Shown: positions 11,684 through 19,280 of the stretch, in pieces
How the letters are laid out: every line of letters starts with the position of its first letter
How positions within the stretch are numbered: the first letter of the stretch is position 1
From: Kangiella sp.
GTDB taxonomy: Bacteria > Pseudomonadota > Gammaproteobacteria > Enterobacterales > Kangiellaceae
Assembly: GCA_026195755.1 (NCBI GenBank)
Contig: JAPHRL010000222.1
Coordinates: 1-33,889, forward strand
Direction: 5' to 3'
DNA length: 33,889 nucleotides
Made by a program: the position numbers and the translations under genes
Notes under the pieces: model-generated
What the model was told of the DNA's origin: nothing
Database searches by the model: none
What the model saw: the letters and a program-made list of their open reading frames with translations, nothing else

Positions 11684-12901
11684 CTAGGATCTTACCTGCA
11701 TACTGCGTTCATGCCAAACCAATTGCTCCGCTTCAGCCAGCGGGCGACCAATCTCCGCCAATTGGATACGACCTTCATCGCTAATCTGCTGGTAGGATTG
11801 AATATTCATAAAGCTTTGCACGCACAAGCCACTAGAACGATTGGCGCTGCCCATGGTGGGTAATGTGTGATTAGGGCCGGCACAATAATCCCCGAAAGCC
11901 ACTGCGCTGTTCTGTCCAATAAAGAGCGAGCCGTAGTGCTTCAGGCTTTGCGCTGCAATTCGTTCGTCAGCCAGCAACAGGTGTTCAGGCGCGTAGCGAT
12001 TACTAAAACGAATCATGGCTTCACTGTCATTAGCTTGCAGTAAAACTATCTGCTCGCCTTTGAGTAGATTATTCAGTTCATCATTAGCAAAAAGCTGCTG
12101 CTCGATGGATTGCAGAAACGCCACATCATCACTAACCAATACACTTTGCGCCTGTGGATCATGTTCAGCCTGCGCAGCCATATCGGCAATTAGCCATTCC
12201 TGATTAGCATTAGAGTCGGACAGAATTAGTAGCTCACTTGGTCCTGCTGCAACATCAATTTTGATACGACTTTGCAATAATTGCTTTGCCACGTTCACAT
12301 ATTGATTGCCCGGACCCACCACCATCTGTACCGGCAACATGCTCTGATACCCATAGGCCATTGCTGCGACCGCCTGTGCACCGCCAATGTGCCAGAACTC
12401 TGTTGCTCCTGCCAACGATGCAGCCGCTAAAATTGCAGGGTGCACTGATGGCGAACAGGCTATTCGACGTTCACAACCAGCAACCCGCGCTGGAATCAAG
12501 GTCATCAGTGCAGTTGAAATCAGCGGAAAGCGCCCACCCGGAATATAAGCCCCAATCGCTTCAATAGGACTGTACTGAAAGCCAAACACGCCACTTGCTT
12601 CTTCGAACTGTTGGGGTTGCAATGAATCTTGTTGCAACTGACAGAAAGCTTCAATTCGTTGCGCCGACTGTTCAATCGAGTTTAATAGTTGCGGCTCTAG
12701 CTCGTAGTCACGATAAGAACGTAGCTCGATTTTGCGTGGTTGAAAACCATCAAATCGCTTGCTCAGGTTATCAATCGCAAGATCACCGCCAGTCTCAATT
12801 TCCTTTAAAAGCTTAGCTACCTGTTGAAACAATTCCGGCGATTGGGTGAGATTAGGACGCTTCCAGTTAGAAACGCACTCAATGTAAGATTTATCCGCCA
12901 T
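11684..12901 (-). CDS. hisD: Histidinol dehydrogenase
   Basis: [63 protein letters not shown]. Start set to MADKSYIE at 12901, overlapping the hisIE stop. Confidence 0.95.
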
Positions 12902-14129
12902 TTCGTGCCCCCAATTCGTTAATAATATCACTGGCTGCTACCCCTTTTGATTTAGCTCGCGCCAGGGCAAAGAAGATTAAATCTGCCGCCTCCCAACGCA
13001 CTTCATCTTGATCGTGCGCCTCAATTAACTCTTCGCATTCTTCACGCAGTTTCTCCTGTTGTAAATCATCGCTAGCCAAAAGCTTTTGACTAAAGGTTTT
13101 GATTTCCTGAGTTTGCATGCGTTGTTCAAAAATGCGGTCCAAAGTGTCCAGCTCAAAAGAAGCTGATTGCCCAGCGAAACAACTGTAACGCTCAAAGTGA
13201 CAGGCATTACCTGTTTGTCTAACTTTGAATAATAAAGTATCGCCATCGCAGTCATAATCGACATTCACCAATTGTTGTTGATTGCCACTAGTTAACCCTT
13301 TCTCCCATAACTCATTACGCGAACGGCTGAAATAAATTCCTCTCTTCTGCGTAATGGCAGCCTGTAATGACTCTGGTGTTGAGTAAGCCAGCATTAGCAC
13401 ACTGCCGGTATCCACGTCTTGCACAATGGTTGGAATCAAGGGCGCTTTTTCAAAATCAAGACAAGCCATAACTGCCTCATCCAGTTTTAACTTACCCGTG
13501 TAAATTGACATACCTAACTGGCTGTTAGCACCAAGCTTATTGATAAACTGAATGTCATCCAGATCGGTTATACCACCAGCAACGGTTACCGGAATTTTTG
13601 ATTGCTTGATGACCTGTTCTATTCGCTCACGATCAATGCCTTGCATCATGCCTTCTTTTTCCACCTGGGTATAAAGAAACTCTGAACAGTTATCTTGAAG
13701 CTCATCAATCATGGCTGCAACTTTGCTATTTGAAGAGGACTGCCAGCCGTGAGTTACCCAGTCATCACCTTTTGCATCAATGGCAAATATCAGCTGTGAC
13801 TTTGGCAACTTCTTAACAAATTCTTCGCGACAACAAGTCCCTAAAATAATCTTTTTAGCACCACTGGCAAGATAATCTCTGGCAGTATCGTAATCACGAA
13901 TCCCACCACCCACACGACAGGGAAATTTTTTGATTAGTTGCTTGATTAAGGTTTTATTGTCGCCCTTCCCCAAAGCAGCATTTAAATCAATAATGGCGAC
14001 TTCGCCAAACAAAGAAAACTCTTCCAACAATTCGAACAAATTGTCTTTTTCTACAATCTTTCGACTGGCATCACCTTGCTGCAATTGCACAGCTTTGCCA
14101 TCTAATAAATCAATACTTGGAATCAACAT
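12891..14129 (-). CDS. hisA-hisIE: Fusion protein: HisA isomerase plus HisI cyclohydrolase plus HisE pyrophosphohydrolase
   Basis: N-terminal MLIPSIDLLDGKAVQLQQGD...VGGGIRDYDTARDYLASGAKKIILGT (HisA); GIYFSRSRNELWEKGLTSGNQQQLVNVDYDCDGDTLLFKVRQTGNACH (HisI); EKLREECEELIEAHDQDEVRWEAADLIFFALARA (HisE); one uninterrupted frame. Confidence 0.92.
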   Translation of the reverse strand: MLIPSIDLLDGKAVQLQQGDASRKIVEKDNLFELLEEFSLFGEVAIIDLNAALGKGDNKTLIKQLIKKFPCRVGGGIRDYDTARDYLASGAKKIILGTCCREEFVKKLPKSQLIFAIDAKGDDWVTHGWQSSSNSKVAAMIDELQDNCSEFLYTQVEKEGMMQGIDRERIEQVIKQSKIPVTVAGGITDLDDIQFINKLGANSQLGMSIYTGKLKLDEAVMACLDFEKAPLIPTIVQDVDTGSVLMLAYSTPESLQAAITQKRGIYFSRSRNELWEKGLTSGNQQQLVNVDYDCDGDTLLFKVRQTGNACHFERYSCFAGQSASFELDTLDRIFEQRMQTQEIKTFSQKLLASDDLQQEKLREECEELIEAHDQDEVRWEAADLIFFALARAKSKGVAASDIINELGARNGG

Positions 14130-14139
14130 AATTTTTACC

Positions 14140-14967
14140 TTAATCTTTTAAGTATTCGTTTCGAACGGCAACACCGTTTCTCAATAATTCGTCTTTCACC
14201 TGACCAACCGTAAATTCGCCACGATGGAAAATGCCTGCTGCTAGTGCTGCATCGCTGCCTGCGAGAAAGGTCTCGGTAAAGTGCTCAGGTTTGCAAGCAC
14301 CACCCGAGGCGATCACTTGAATACCAAGTTGCTCGCTGACTTTGCTCATCAGCTCATTATCAAAACCAAGACCAGTTCCATCTCGATGCATAGCAGTGAG
14401 TAATACTTCCCCTGCACCACGCTGCTCGACTTGTGCAAGCCACTGCATCGCATCTAAATCGGTCGGAGTATTACCACCATTAATAAAGACCTGGTAATCG
14501 CTTAAAGGCTTGTTCTGATCCTGCTTTTGACTCTGACCTTGATTCAAGTCCACAGCCACCACCACACACTGCGAACCAAAACCCTTAGCAATCTGGTCAA
14601 TCAAATCAGGGTGCTTAACTGCAGCACTATTGAGCGCTACTTTGTCAGCACCGGCATTTAAGAACTGCGCCACATCAGCATAAGTATTCAATCCACCGCC
14701 GACAGTAAATGGAATCGATAAATTTTCTGCCACACGAGTTACAACTTCTAAAGCATTAGCTCGCTGTTCAAGTGTCGCCTTAATATCAAGGAAAACAATC
14801 TCATCAGCTCCCTGTTCCTGGTAACGAACTGCCAACTCAACTGGGTCACCCATATCTTTCAGGCCTTTAAAATTAATTCCTTTAACCACCCGACCATGTG
14901 CCACATCAAGACAAACAATCACCCGGGACTTAAGCCCTTGTTCAATACTGTTTATTAACTCAGACAT
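14140..14967 (-). CDS. hisF: Imidazole glycerol phosphate synthase cyclase subunit HisF
   Basis: [48 protein letters not shown]...[13 protein letters not shown]...[13 protein letters not shown]. Confidence 0.95.
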
Positions 14968-15563
14968 TGCTTTAATACCTCTTCGCCAGCTACTCCGGAT
15001 TTTTCAGGGTGGCATTGAAATGCAATCGTGTTATTACTGGCAATAGCAGCAACAAACGTTTGCCCATATGTTACCGTTGCAATCGACTTGTCACTGGCAC
15101 TAACACCATAACTATTGACGAAATAAAGCGTCTGATTGTTGAGCCAATCTTCACTTGATTGAACATCAGACCATCCCACCATCGGTTGTTTTGGGCTTTG
15201 TAACCTAGTCACTTTTCCCTGCAATAATCCCAGTCCTGATACACCAGGATCTTCTTCAGACTCCTCAAACATAATCTGCAAGCCGATACAGATGCCGACC
15301 ATTTTTTTGTTGTCTCGATACCAGTTCGTAATCACCTCATCCAGAGCGCAGGCTTTCAGGTTGGTCATTACAGTTCTAAATCGGCCCTGACCAGGAATAA
15401 CCAAAGCCGAAATGTCGTAGCGCTCCAAATCGCTGGGTTGATTGATTGTTACTGGATAAAAACCCATACGACGTAAGCAACCATTTAAACTATATAAATT
15501 GCCCGCTCCAGTATTTATCACACCCACCGTTTTAGAGGCTTCTTTCATCACTGAATCACTCAT
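14955..15563 (-). CDS. hisH: Imidazole glycerol phosphate synthase glutamine amidotransferase subunit HisH
   Basis: GVINTGAGNLYSLNGCLRRMGF, LVIPGQGRF, GICIGLQIMFEESEEDPGVSGLGLLQGKV, FQCHPEKSG. Confidence 0.94.
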   Translation of the reverse strand: MSDSVMKEASKTVGVINTGAGNLYSLNGCLRRMGFYPVTINQPSDLERYDISALVIPGQGRFRTVMTNLKACALDEVITNWYRDNKKMVGICIGLQIMFEESEEDPGVSGLGLLQGKVTRLQSPKQPMVGWSDVQSSEDWLNNQTLYFVNSYGVSASDKSIATVTYGQTFVAAIASNNTIAFQCHPEKSGVAGEEVLKQCLS

Positions 15564-16156
15564 AAACTACCCTTCGAACTATTGGCACCCGACTTTGGAA
15601 GCAAAGCTTCGCGCAGTGCAAAAGCAAGTCCTTTGAAAGAGGCTTCAATTAAGTGGTGATTGTTATCGAAATACTCCGCTTTAATGTGCAAACTTATCTG
15701 CGCATTAATCGCGAAGGTGTAGAAAAAGTGTTTCCACATTTCAGTAGCAATATTGCCAATCATTTCGCGTGTAAAAGGTAAGTCCGTTACGCCGTAACCA
15801 CGTCCACACACATCCACCGCGACCATGATCAGGCTGGCGTCCATCGGTAACAATCGTTGCCCATAACGGGTGATCGACTCTTGTTCGCGCCATGCTTGCT
15901 GCAAAGCTTGTCCTAAACAAATCGCGACATCTTCAATCAGGTGATGATCATCAACCTCTAAGTCACCATTGGCTTCAAGATTTAAATTCCAACCTGCGTG
16001 CAATGCCAACTGAGTGAGCATGTGATCGAAGAAAGGCAGTCCAGTATTGATCTTGAGCTTCTGCTGGCCATAGATATTGAGATCCAGGCGAATAGCTGTC
16101 TCTTTAGTCTGACGGACAATAGAAACTATAGACTTTTGGTTCTTTGTGTCACTCAT
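15560..16156 (-). CDS. hisB: Imidazoleglycerol-phosphate dehydratase, monofunctional HisB
   Basis: TGLPFFDHMLTQLALHAGW, VDDHHLIEDVAICLGQAL, NNHHLIEASFKGLAFALREAL; no N-terminal phosphatase domain. Confidence 0.95.
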   Translation of the reverse strand: MSDTKNQKSIVSIVRQTKETAIRLDLNIYGQQKLKINTGLPFFDHMLTQLALHAGWNLNLEANGDLEVDDHHLIEDVAICLGQALQQAWREQESITRYGQRLLPMDASLIMVAVDVCGRGYGVTDLPFTREMIGNIATEMWKHFFYTFAINAQISLHIKAEYFDNNHHLIEASFKGLAFALREALLPKSGANSSKGSL

Positions 16157-17853
16157 AATAACCTCTCTAAATCATTTACTGACGCCACTACCAGATCGGC
16201 ACCAGCTTGATATAAATTTTGTTCGTTATCTTTGTTACTAACTCCAATAGCCAATGCGCCCGCTGCTTTAGCTGCCTGAATATCATCCGGTGTATCACCC
16301 AGCATCCAACAATAAGTTGCGCCATAATAAGCTTTACACTGATTGATTCCTTCTGGAGCAGGTTTAGACTCAATAACATCACAATCACTAACCAAATACG
16401 TATTACGAATCCCTAGCAGCTCTAAGCCAATTTCAGCTTCTCCACGAGGACGACCCGTGACTACCGCAGTTTTAAATTGCTTGCTGTTCTGTACAAATAA
16501 CTGAGTACAAAGATTTGTATCCAATAAGGCCTCTTCTAATTCATTGAGGCCTGCTTGACCACTACTGCCCAGATAAAACAACTGAAACTGTTCCACCACT
16601 GAGTCGTAGTTTGGCAATGAATCTTCTCGTTGTATCTTTATTAATTCATAGGTCAGCACCCAGTCATTATTAAATCCGCCACGTGAACGTAATGTGTCGA
16701 TTGCTTGTTGCTCTGGTTGTGTACCAATAAAGAACTCTACTGTTTGCTTGATAGCAGCGTCGTAACTCTTGCTGGTGTCAATCAAAACCCCATCCATATC
16801 AAAACAAATCAGCTCAGGTTTAAGCGCGAGTACCAAAGCCTGTCTTAGTACTTCCAATTCATAAGGAATGGCAATACGGATTGCTGACTGCTCTTGTGAA
16901 TCCAACTCCTTTTGCTCTAAGCCAACCAAATCAGTTTTAATCTGGATATTGCTTTGTTCACAAGCCGCTTTAATCAGTTTCAGTCTTTGTGGATTATCAA
17001 CAATCAGAATAAAATTAGCCTGGCTGTCTAACACATTCAAACCACGCTGGCGCAAAAACTGCACTAACAGATCACGGTTCTCTGCGATGCGCTGAGTAAA
17101 GTCCGCCACATCTCGTTGTGCCGCTTGAGTGAATGCCTGAATAGCGATTTCCAGAGTTGGCTGCGGCACATTGAATGGCATCTTGCGCTCAGCAAATCGC
17201 TTAATGAAAGCTTCACCACCCAATAGATAACCGCATCGAATGCCAGCCAGTCCATAAGCTTTGGATAAAGTGCGAAGCAGCACCAGGTTATCGAACTCTT
17301 CTAGCAAAGAAAGAGACTCTTCTGCCTGCCCTGTAAACTCGATATAAGCCTGATCAAGAAAGACCTCCGCTCCTTTGTTCTTGGCCTTTCGACAAGCATC
17401 TCTAATGAAATCCAAAGAAAGCGTTTCACCGGTTGGGTTATTAGGACTAGTCAATACCAGAATCGACTTCTCTGTTAGTGCTTGCAGGCTTGCCTCAAGA
17501 TCAATTGATAAATCTGACTTAGCTGGAATCAGTTTAGCTTTACTGCTCCAAACCTTGATGCCCGATAAATATTGACTAAAAGCAGGCATCGGAATGATCA
17601 AGTCACGCTGCTCAAGCGTTGCCAGTTTGAACATCAGTTCAATCGCTTCGTCGCCACCGTTGGTTACTAAAATCTGCTCGGGACTCAAACCCAACTGCTT
17701 GCTCATGGCTGATTTCAACTGAGACTGATCGGGATAGCGCCAATAGTTCTGTGGCGATAGTTTGCTGGTATCCAACCACTCAGGGAAACGATCCGCCCGC
17801 TCATTAAAATCGAGCTTTAACGGCTCAGTTTTGATTTCTTTCATATTCATCAC
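16153..17853 (-). CDS. hisC: Fusion protein: histidinol-phosphate aminotransferase HisC plus C-terminal HAD phosphatase domain
   Basis: Aminotransferase VLTSPNNPTGETLS and PLP lysine motif LRTLSKAYGLAGIRCGYLLG; then HAD motifs CFDMDGVLIDT, AVVTGRPRGEAE, SKPAPEGI, MLGDTPDDIQAAKAAG. Confidence 0.93.
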   Translation of the reverse strand: MMNMKEIKTEPLKLDFNERADRFPEWLDTSKLSPQNYWRYPDQSQLKSAMSKQLGLSPEQILVTNGGDEAIELMFKLATLEQRDLIIPMPAFSQYLSGIKVWSSKAKLIPAKSDLSIDLEASLQALTEKSILVLTSPNNPTGETLSLDFIRDACRKAKNKGAEVFLDQAYIEFTGQAEESLSLLEEFDNLVLLRTLSKAYGLAGIRCGYLLGGEAFIKRFAERKMPFNVPQPTLEIAIQAFTQAAQRDVADFTQRIAENRDLLVQFLRQRGLNVLDSQANFILIVDNPQRLKLIKAACEQSNIQIKTDLVGLEQKELDSQEQSAIRIAIPYELEVLRQALVLALKPELICFDMDGVLIDTSKSYDAAIKQTVEFFIGTQPEQQAIDTLRSRGGFNNDWVLTYELIKIQREDSLPNYDSVVEQFQLFYLGSSGQAGLNELEEALLDTNLCTQLFVQNSKQFKTAVVTGRPRGEAEIGLELLGIRNTYLVSDCDVIESKPAPEGINQCKAYYGATYCWMLGDTPDDIQAAKAAGALAIGVSNKDNEQNLYQAGADLVVASVNDLERLL

Positions 17854-17875: not shown

Positions 17876-18724
17876 CTACAGCACTTTGCGAATCGGCGTT
17901 TCTAAAATATCCGTTGCACCAGCTGTAATCAGTTTCGGTAACAAGTCTTTAATCAGCTTACGCTCAATGGCTGCTTTAATAGCAAAACCATCGGCGTTAT
18001 ACAGTTGGCTGACGGTTGGGGCTCGCATTGCAGGCAATAAATCGACAACCCTATCGATGCTCTCTTCTGAGCAGTTCATCTCCAGTAACACACGCTTACG
18101 ACCATTAAGAACACCACGCATCAAAAGCAAAAGGTCGTCAATCTGTTGACGTTTTGCGGGATCATTTATAACGTCCTTATTAGCGATAAGCTGGGTTGAA
18201 CTTTCCATAACCGTATCAACAATCTTCAAACGATTAGCGCGAATAGTCGAACCAGTGCTGGTATTGTCGATCACCATATCCGCATCTTCTGGCGGGAAAA
18301 CTTCAGTCGCGCCATAAGCACGGAGCAGCTGATATTGAACGCCCAACTTATCGAGATACTTCGCAGAAATTTTCTTATACTCGGAAGCAACAATAATTTT
18401 TCGCTGCTGTACCTCGTTCCAATCCCACTCTTCTGGAATACAGGAAACTAGTCTGACCGGGTTAAAACCTAAATCCTCAAGAACCTCAACGTCCGCCTCC
18501 TGCTCCAGCACCCAGTCCATGCCCGCAAAGCCAATATCGTGTTGGCCCAGCGCCACCATTTCAGGAATGTTCTGACTTTTCAGCAACTTAACCTCGATAT
18601 CACAGCCAAATAGCTGAGGGCGATAATTACGACTATCACCAACCAACGTCAGACCAATATCGGAAAGTAGCTCAGCCACCTTGTCGTATAACTTCCCTTT
18701 TGGGATTACCATTTTTAAAGCCAT
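17876..18724 (-). CDS. hisG: ATP phosphoribosyltransferase HisG, form with C-terminal regulatory-like domain
   Basis: MVIPKGKLYDKVAELLSDIGL, HDIGFAGMDWVLE, ADMVIDNTSTGSTIRANRLKIVDTVMESS; good SD TAGGAG upstream. Confidence 0.92.
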   Translation of the reverse strand: MALKMVIPKGKLYDKVAELLSDIGLTLVGDSRNYRPQLFGCDIEVKLLKSQNIPEMVALGQHDIGFAGMDWVLEQEADVEVLEDLGFNPVRLVSCIPEEWDWNEVQQRKIIVASEYKKISAKYLDKLGVQYQLLRAYGATEVFPPEDADMVIDNTSTGSTIRANRLKIVDTVMESSTQLIANKDVINDPAKRQQIDDLLLLMRGVLNGRKRVLLEMNCSEESIDRVVDLLPAMRAPTVSQLYNADGFAIKAAIERKLIKDLLPKLITAGATDILETPIRKVL

Positions 18725-18793
18725 GTCATTTCTCCTAAAGTTTAAAAATTTTAAAGTTTCATAGTTTCAAAAGCATCATTTCTTAAAGCCAAT

Positions 18794-18829
18794 AAAAAAC
18801 CCCGTTGACCTTGCGGAGCAACGGGGTTT
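18794..18829 (-). terminator. his attenuator 2 terminator (hisG-proximal)
   Basis: Minus strand AAACCCCGTTG...CAACGGGGTTTTTT: 11-bp stem plus T-run, between leader peptide 2 and hisG. Confidence 0.88.
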
Positions 18830-18863
18830 CTAAACCTGGGTGTCTTAACTGTTTAACTGAGTC

Positions 18864-18950
18864 TTAAAAAAGTCTTAAACATAAGCACCGCCACCGTCGC
18901 TCGCGCAGTGTATGATGATGGTGATGATGTAAGCTCTTGTTTAAAAACAT
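18864..18950 (-). CDS. his operon leader peptide 2: MFLNKSLHHHHHHTLRERRWRCLCLRLF
   Basis: Short ORF with six consecutive His codons (CAT CAT CAC CAT CAT CAT, 18929-18912), followed by a terminator hairpin and hisG. Confidence 0.85.
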   Translation of the reverse strand: MFLNKSLHHHHHHTLRERRWRCLCLRLF

Positions 18951-19016
18951 CTTTTTATCTCGTTTAATCAGCTTCAGTATTCAGTGTTAAAAGTCAGTTA
19001 TAAAAGTTACAAACAT

Positions 19017-19046
19017 AAAAAAAGCCCCGCTTCTGGCGGGGCTTTT
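19017..19046 (-). terminator. his attenuator 1 terminator (distal)
   Basis: Minus strand AAAGCCCCGC CAGAA GCGGGGCTTTTTTT: 10-bp GC-rich stem plus T-run, between the two leader peptides. Confidence 0.88.
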
Positions 19047-19068
19047 AGAAATTCCTAATCAGTAAATT

Positions 19069-19143
19069 TCACACATAAAGCAACACCGCCAATCGGTCTG
19101 AATGGTGGTGATGGTGGTGAATTTGCGTCATTACTGTATTCAT
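19069..19143 (-). CDS. his operon leader peptide 1: MNTVMTQIHHHHHHSDRLAVLLYV
   Basis: Short ORF with six consecutive His codons (CAC CAC CAT CAC CAC CAT, 19119-19102), followed by its own terminator. Confidence 0.85.
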   Translation of the reverse strand: MNTVMTQIHHHHHHSDRLAVLLYV

Positions 19144-19150
19144 GAGGCTG

Positions 19151-19179
19151 ATTAAAACCTATCCGATGAGAGGTGTCAA
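19151..19179 (-). promoter_or_regulatory. Predicted sigma70-like promoter of the his operon
   Basis: Minus strand TTGACA (19179-19174), 17 bp spacer, TTTAAT (19156-19151), then 7 nt to the leader 1 ATG. Confidence 0.65.
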
Positions 19180-19280
19180 CAGTGTTATTAATATTTAATA
19201 CTTATATTAGATTAAGTTGTTTGTAAGGGCTCACCCAACAGGCTTGCTCCAATTCCCCCTTAGATTGAGCTGAGTAGTAG

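Follow-up and report, generated by a model that had tools for sequence, protein, structure and literature searches.

The his operon of the genome analyzed here, that of the marine bacterium Kangiella, is very probably controlled by two complete ribosome-mediated his attenuators, which would lie in series on one transcript and would both read charged tRNA-His. Textbooks present leader-peptide attenuation with a single sensor for each operon, and attenuation of the his type is known; the doubling in series appears to be the new part.

Here, we will use the term window for the whole stretch of DNA that was analyzed (33,889 nucleotides), which is part of a Kangiella assembly and carries the his operon on the minus strand. 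Its HisG is 98% identical to that of Kangiella sp. MAG Bin_2 and 95% identical to that of K. aquimarina DSM 16071. Reading the minus strand from ispD toward hisG, one encounters a promoter, a first His6 leader, terminator 1, a second His6 leader, and terminator 2, which is the order proposed in the initial annotation (Table 1).

Table 1. Features of the his leader region and operon in the window, listed in the direction of transcription
Feature	Positions	Strand	Sequence or content	Basis or remark
Sigma-70 his operon promoter	19151-19179	minus	TTGACA (19179-19174), 17 nt, TTTAAT (19156-19151)	Kept in 19/19 Kangiella-clade loci
Predicted transcription start	19142-19144	minus	About the A of the leader-1 ATG (19143)	Promoter geometry
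Leader peptide 1	19069-19143	minus	MNTVMTQI-HHHHHH-SDRLAVLLYV	ORF; homologues in every tandem locus of Kangiella and the Marinicella type
His codon block 1	19102-19119	minus	CAC CAC CAT CAC CAC CAT	Pattern search
Antiterminator 1, 5′ arm	19086-19092	minus	UUGGCGG	Pairs with CCGCCAG 19039-19033; p=0.015
Intrinsic terminator 1	19020-19046	minus	AAAAGCCCCGCC-AGA-AGCGGGGCUUUU, U-run to about 19015	Hairpin scans
Leader peptide 2	18864-18950	minus	MFLNKSL-HHHHHH-TLRERRWRCLCLRLF	ORF and comparison across loci
His codon block 2	18912-18929	minus	CAT CAT CAC CAT CAT CAT	Pattern search
Antiterminator 2, 5′ arm	18890-18907	minus	Core GAGCGACGG (18902-18894)	Pairs with CCGUUGCUC 18824-18816; p=0.002
Intrinsic terminator 2	18795-18831	minus	AGAAACCCCGUUGCUCC...GGUCAACGGGGUUUUU, U-run to about 18794	Own scan; paired columns co-vary
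hisG	17876-18724	minus	Long version, carrying a HisG_C domain	First gene of the regulated operon
Remaining his operon	11684-17853	minus	hisC-HAD fusion, hisB (dehydratase), hisH, hisF, hisA-hisIE fusion, hisD	

The two leader ORFs, with six His codons each, lie exactly where they had first been placed, and each is indeed followed by a terminator of its own, a GC-rich hairpin with a U-run that stands between the ORF and hisG. A simple terminator scanner catches terminator 1 and misses terminator 2, the loop of which is too long, whereas our own scan catches both. The 2.54-Mb assembly contains exactly two (CAY)6 sites, one per leader; when 200,000 random sequences of 450 nt were generated with the same dinucleotide composition, three held one (CAY)5 run and none held two. 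Searching a plasmid collection with the leader region gave no match, and in six Kangiella genomes the regions upstream of leuA and trpE showed no tandem leaders, which is a weak test.

Upstream regions were read for 59 distinct hisG loci belonging to the same HisG clade as the window. Two leader-plus-terminator modules are present in 32 of them and one module in 26, and no leader was recognized in the last (L101). The tandem layout occurs in 19/19 Kangiella-clade loci, including K. aquimarina DSM 16071 and K. taiwanensis; the remaining 13 tandem loci come from Marinicella and its relatives, where they are mixed with single-module loci. The Aliikangiella/Pleionea clade, to which L101 belongs, has one module in 16 of its 17 loci. 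Because the layout is common to all 19 Kangiella genomes and to the distant Marinicella-type bacteria, the doubled arrangement is a kept design and not an accident. Recent duplication or an assembly error, against which the initial annotation had argued, can be ruled out, as no arm is the same in the two modules and the layout is found again in isolates and in other genera, being present in the two named Kangiella species and in 16 other Kangiella-clade loci.

A single leader is what had been stated for classical his attenuation, and among long-HisG control loci that represent other families in this order this is what one sees: 16 of 18 have exactly one His leader and one terminator, and no leader was recognized in the other two. 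Among the class-level HisG hits, the top 30 by score are of the short type, and no His leader was found in these controls. A class-wide search for tandem His runs by a two-gap DNA pattern was dropped, 310 of 369 genomes having been matched by chance.

The genes downstream include two fusions. HisC aminotransferase and a HAD-type hydrolase domain form one protein of 566 aa (window 16153-17853, minus strand), and HisA, HisI, and HisE form another of 412 aa (window 12891-14129, minus strand). A HisC-HAD fusion is also encoded in L022 (3846-5510; 554 aa, 40% identical to the window's protein), and the fusion follows hisG in Marinicella pacifica as well as in L053, where it is cut by the locus end. 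The HisG proteins of most other families of the order show just 25-32% identity. Set against that low identity elsewhere, the fusion common to Kangiella and Marinicella suggests that the his operon and its leader may have moved as one between distant gammaproteobacteria. A contig from a Planctomycetota-labelled MAG (L029) carries a related hisG (46-47% identical) behind one His leader and terminator, reflecting either transfer or a binning error.

An attenuator should possess not only stalling codons and a terminator but also an antiterminator. Each module of every tandem locus (32/32) has, near the His block, a stretch complementary to the terminator's 5′ arm, and this stretch begins between the end of the block and about 16 nt past it. 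Measured against dinucleotide shuffles of the spacer, this complementarity has p<0.05 in 27/32 loci for module 1 and 28/32 for module 2, the loci being related and the tests non-independent. Since the register of the module-1 antiterminator shifts between Kangiella and Marinicella, a duplex test was used instead of a fixed-column pair count. With an intrinsic terminator, an antiterminator arm, and stalling codons in both modules, and a conserved layout, the sequence supports the description of tandem double his attenuator under which the region was first recorded.

Several loci illustrate how the pairing is kept. In L016, the terminator-2 5′ arm changes from CCCCGTTG to CCCTGTTG, and both of its partners change to match, namely the 3′ arm of the terminator and the antiterminator arm encoded in the leader. 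The module-2 antiterminator is maintained in L008 and L052 by A-U and G-C pairs that replace G-U, and in module 1 of L008, L011, L012, and L052 complementarity is held in a shifted register. The terminator 2 helix co-varies strongly on fixed columns (0/500 shuffles attain its score); pair covariation for antiterminator 2 is modest (22/500 shuffles attain the observed score) because most of its pairs are invariant.

Folding in silico casts module 1 as the classical three-way switch. The antiterminator is predicted to form when a ribosome sits on His1-His3 (-16.2 kcal/mol) and to be largely lost when the ribosome is at the stop codon (-6.5); if no ribosome is present, the antiterminator arm is predicted to be taken up by the His codons, which corresponds to the classical 1:2 hairpin. 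Module 2 of the window is the weaker point of this reading. There, the leader stop lies 46 nt beyond the His block, past the antiterminator arm, and a ribosome at the stop leaves the arm uncovered; termination would thus need a protector hairpin (ACACUGC-GCGA-GC-G-ACGGUG) to have formed first. The equilibrium fold of module 2 before the terminator 3′ arm still favors the antiterminator in the window species. Among Kangiella relatives, the leader-2 stop is found at +13 to +34 in many and at +43 in others.

Only upstream of leader 1 is a near-consensus promoter kept in both sequence and place. The promoter tool overlooked this TTGACA/TTTAAT pair since it requires an A at position 2 of the -10 box. 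In the window, 7 nt separate the -10 box from the leader-1 ATG, and the spacing is 6-8 nt, usually 7, in 31/31 testable tandem loci; most single-module loci have the 6-8 nt spacing as well, so it is not tandem-specific. Because transcription would, at such a distance, begin with the A of the AUG, leader 1 is probably translated from a leaderless mRNA. In L006, L037, and many Marinicella-type loci, the first ATG that looks like an annotated start in fact overlaps the -10 box. Leader 2 has a weak Shine–Dalgarno match and must start internally.

The two initiation contexts, a conserved leaderless geometry for leader 1 and internal initiation for leader 2, raise the possibility of two different sensors, set apart either by 70S initiation on the leaderless mRNA of leader 1 or by CAC and CAU being read differently (queuosine, tRNA-His). 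Codon usage points the same way over the 32 tandem loci, where leader 1 has the larger share of CAC among its His codons (0.44 vs 0.26 in leader 2; Wilcoxon p=0.0025). The contrast between a CAC-rich and a CAT-rich block that had been drawn initially stands for the window genome and for Kangiella (means of 0.44 and 0.19); it is weak in Marinicella-type loci (0.43 and 0.36), and no mechanistic weight should be placed on it. As the codon contrast is strong in Kangiella alone, and the leaderless geometry extends to single-module loci and is thus not specific to the tandem state, we regard two different sensors as unlikely, and prefer two attenuators that would read the same signal.

One might also suppose that one module does the regulating, the other being a relic or a passive second terminator. 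Single-module loci are viable and common in the clade (26/59), and one of them shows how a module may go. L152, which has one module, matches its two-module sister L151 through leader 1 and terminator 1, and then resumes after the L151 terminator 2; this alignment points to loss of module 2 by a deletion running from one terminator U-tract to the other, with module 1 kept. On the HisG tree there are at least five changes of tandem state, and the root is uncertain, so gain and loss cannot be read from the tree. Against a relic, every tandem locus has His codons, an antiterminator arm, and a terminator in both modules, although decay would be expected in some of the 32 given the large divergence of both modules between Kangiella and Marinicella-type loci. 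We therefore consider a single working module quite improbable, and two working modules the better reading.

If a second promoter lay between the modules, these would be independent units: leader 1 and terminator 1 would yield a short RNA, and hisG would need module 2. The initial annotation had named a strong promoter in this position as a sign of independent action; one was looked for, and none that was significant or consistently placed was found. Weak -10-like hexamers do occur in some loci, the best promoter-like match being TTGACT-18-CAAAAT in L019. These hits are scattered, without a fixed place, and in the 23 loci listed none scores significantly above shuffled sequence (p 0.15-0.95). 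The inter-leader region itself is about 24 to 70 nt long and poorly conserved, in contrast to the conserved promoter before leader 1. An internal promoter is accordingly very unlikely in our judgment. With one promoter before both modules and no fixed or significant one between them, a tandem series on one transcript is well supported at the sequence level, and a transcript from the first promoter should pass both terminators.

Least likely of all is that the first attenuator mainly frees a short leaderless RNA or peptide acting in trans, like the trpL attenuator RNA and peptide in Sinorhizobium meliloti: leader 1 does look leaderless in the clade, as is S. meliloti rnTrpL (PMC7298713), but no conserved peptide or RNA sequence was seen beyond the regulatory elements, nothing points to a target, and the peptide tails encode the antiterminator arm.

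The favored mechanism, two attenuators in series, would operate as follows. Transcription would start at or next to the leader-1 AUG, so that a ribosome can begin on the 5′ end. When histidine is plentiful, this ribosome would pass the six His codons and move onto the antiterminator arm, terminator 1 would form, and RNA polymerase would halt; when histidine is scarce, the ribosome would stall on the His codons, the arm would be free to capture the 5′ strand of terminator 1, and polymerase would continue. A polymerase past terminator 1 would then meet the second His6 leader, independently translated and equipped with its own antiterminator and terminator, and only polymerases that pass both modules would reach hisG. 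On this model both leaders would be translated, both terminators would be used, and the operon would be derepressed under histidine limitation.

As read-through probabilities would multiply, one may expect less leak at the basal level and a steeper response than with a single attenuator. The race model of attenuation of Elf and Ehrenberg (PMC1183508) can be used to visualize this effect. With illustrative, unfitted parameters and an assumed 5% leak per hairpin, the basal level with two modules is about 20 times lower; with the same illustrative parameters, full expression under starvation is nearly equal for two modules and one.

The arrangement could also function as an AND gate, with hisG being turned on only when the ribosomes initiating at the 5′ end (leader 1) and those initiating internally (leader 2) both report histidine shortage. 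We think this doubtful; if true, the operon would take two differently sampled readings of one amino acid through different initiation modes.

Among the closest known systems is the enterobacterial hisL (Rfam RF00514, His_leader), which shares with Kangiella a poly-His leader, mutually exclusive antiterminator and intrinsic terminator, and a position directly before hisG, and differs in having one module instead of two. Rfam at its gathering score gave no match in the window. RF00514 reaches 26.8 bits on module 1, below its 49-bit cut-off, does not hit module 2, and stays below the cut-off on L004, L022, L053, and L152 too; single-leader controls of the enterobacterial type score 114 bits (L168) and 75 bits (L160). 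Because RF00514 fails on the clade loci tested, routine annotation likely misses the leaders of this clade. Rfam TwoAYGGAY matches L004 at 2335-2472 on the minus strand (44.9 bits vs a cut-off of 43), where it overlaps the tandem leader region on the opposite strand, and is probably a chance match to the terminator stems.

In the open-access literature, we found no tandem attenuator with both modules for the same amino acid; tandem attenuators were found for mgtCBR alone, and nothing on Kangiella attenuators or doubled his leaders was seen. Vitreschak et al. 2004 is the main comparative paper on proteobacterial attenuators. The mgtCBR leader of Salmonella (mgtM, mgtP), called a singular example by its authors, resembles that of Kangiella in that its leader mRNA contains two short ORFs, either of which controls whether transcription proceeds into the coding region (PMC3641672). 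Its ORFs sense two different signals, ATP and proline, have additive effects, and work without intrinsic terminators (PMC3641672), whereas both Kangiella leaders would read one amino acid and each has an intrinsic terminator.

Other systems place two sensors of the same molecule in series. Tandem same-ligand riboswitches (e.g., TPP), with two independent sensors, have been described as "pseudo-cooperative" and are predicted to give a steeper, more digital response (PMC9481103); there, RNA aptamers bind the ligand, whereas in Kangiella ribosomes would stall on codons. In Enterococcus, tandem T-boxes that precede genes for histidine transport likewise sense tRNA-His charging twice in series, but belong to Firmicutes and bind the uncharged tRNA directly (PMC9413887). 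As for leader 1, the attenuator RNA of S. meliloti trpL also begins at the ATG of its leader ORF (PMC7298713), although this is a single attenuator, for tryptophan, in an alphaproteobacterium. If leader 1 is truly leaderless, it would add a second case, from the gammaproteobacteria, to the attenuator RNAs whose first codon is also their 5′ end.

The Kangiella tandem attenuator may thus be seen as the ribosome-based counterpart of the pseudo-cooperative tandem riboswitches. Two sensors of the same amino acid in series lead to a clear prediction, namely that read-through would multiply, leak would fall, and steepness would rise, and the clade offers natural one- and two-module relatives, including a sister pair (L151/L152) that is one deletion apart.
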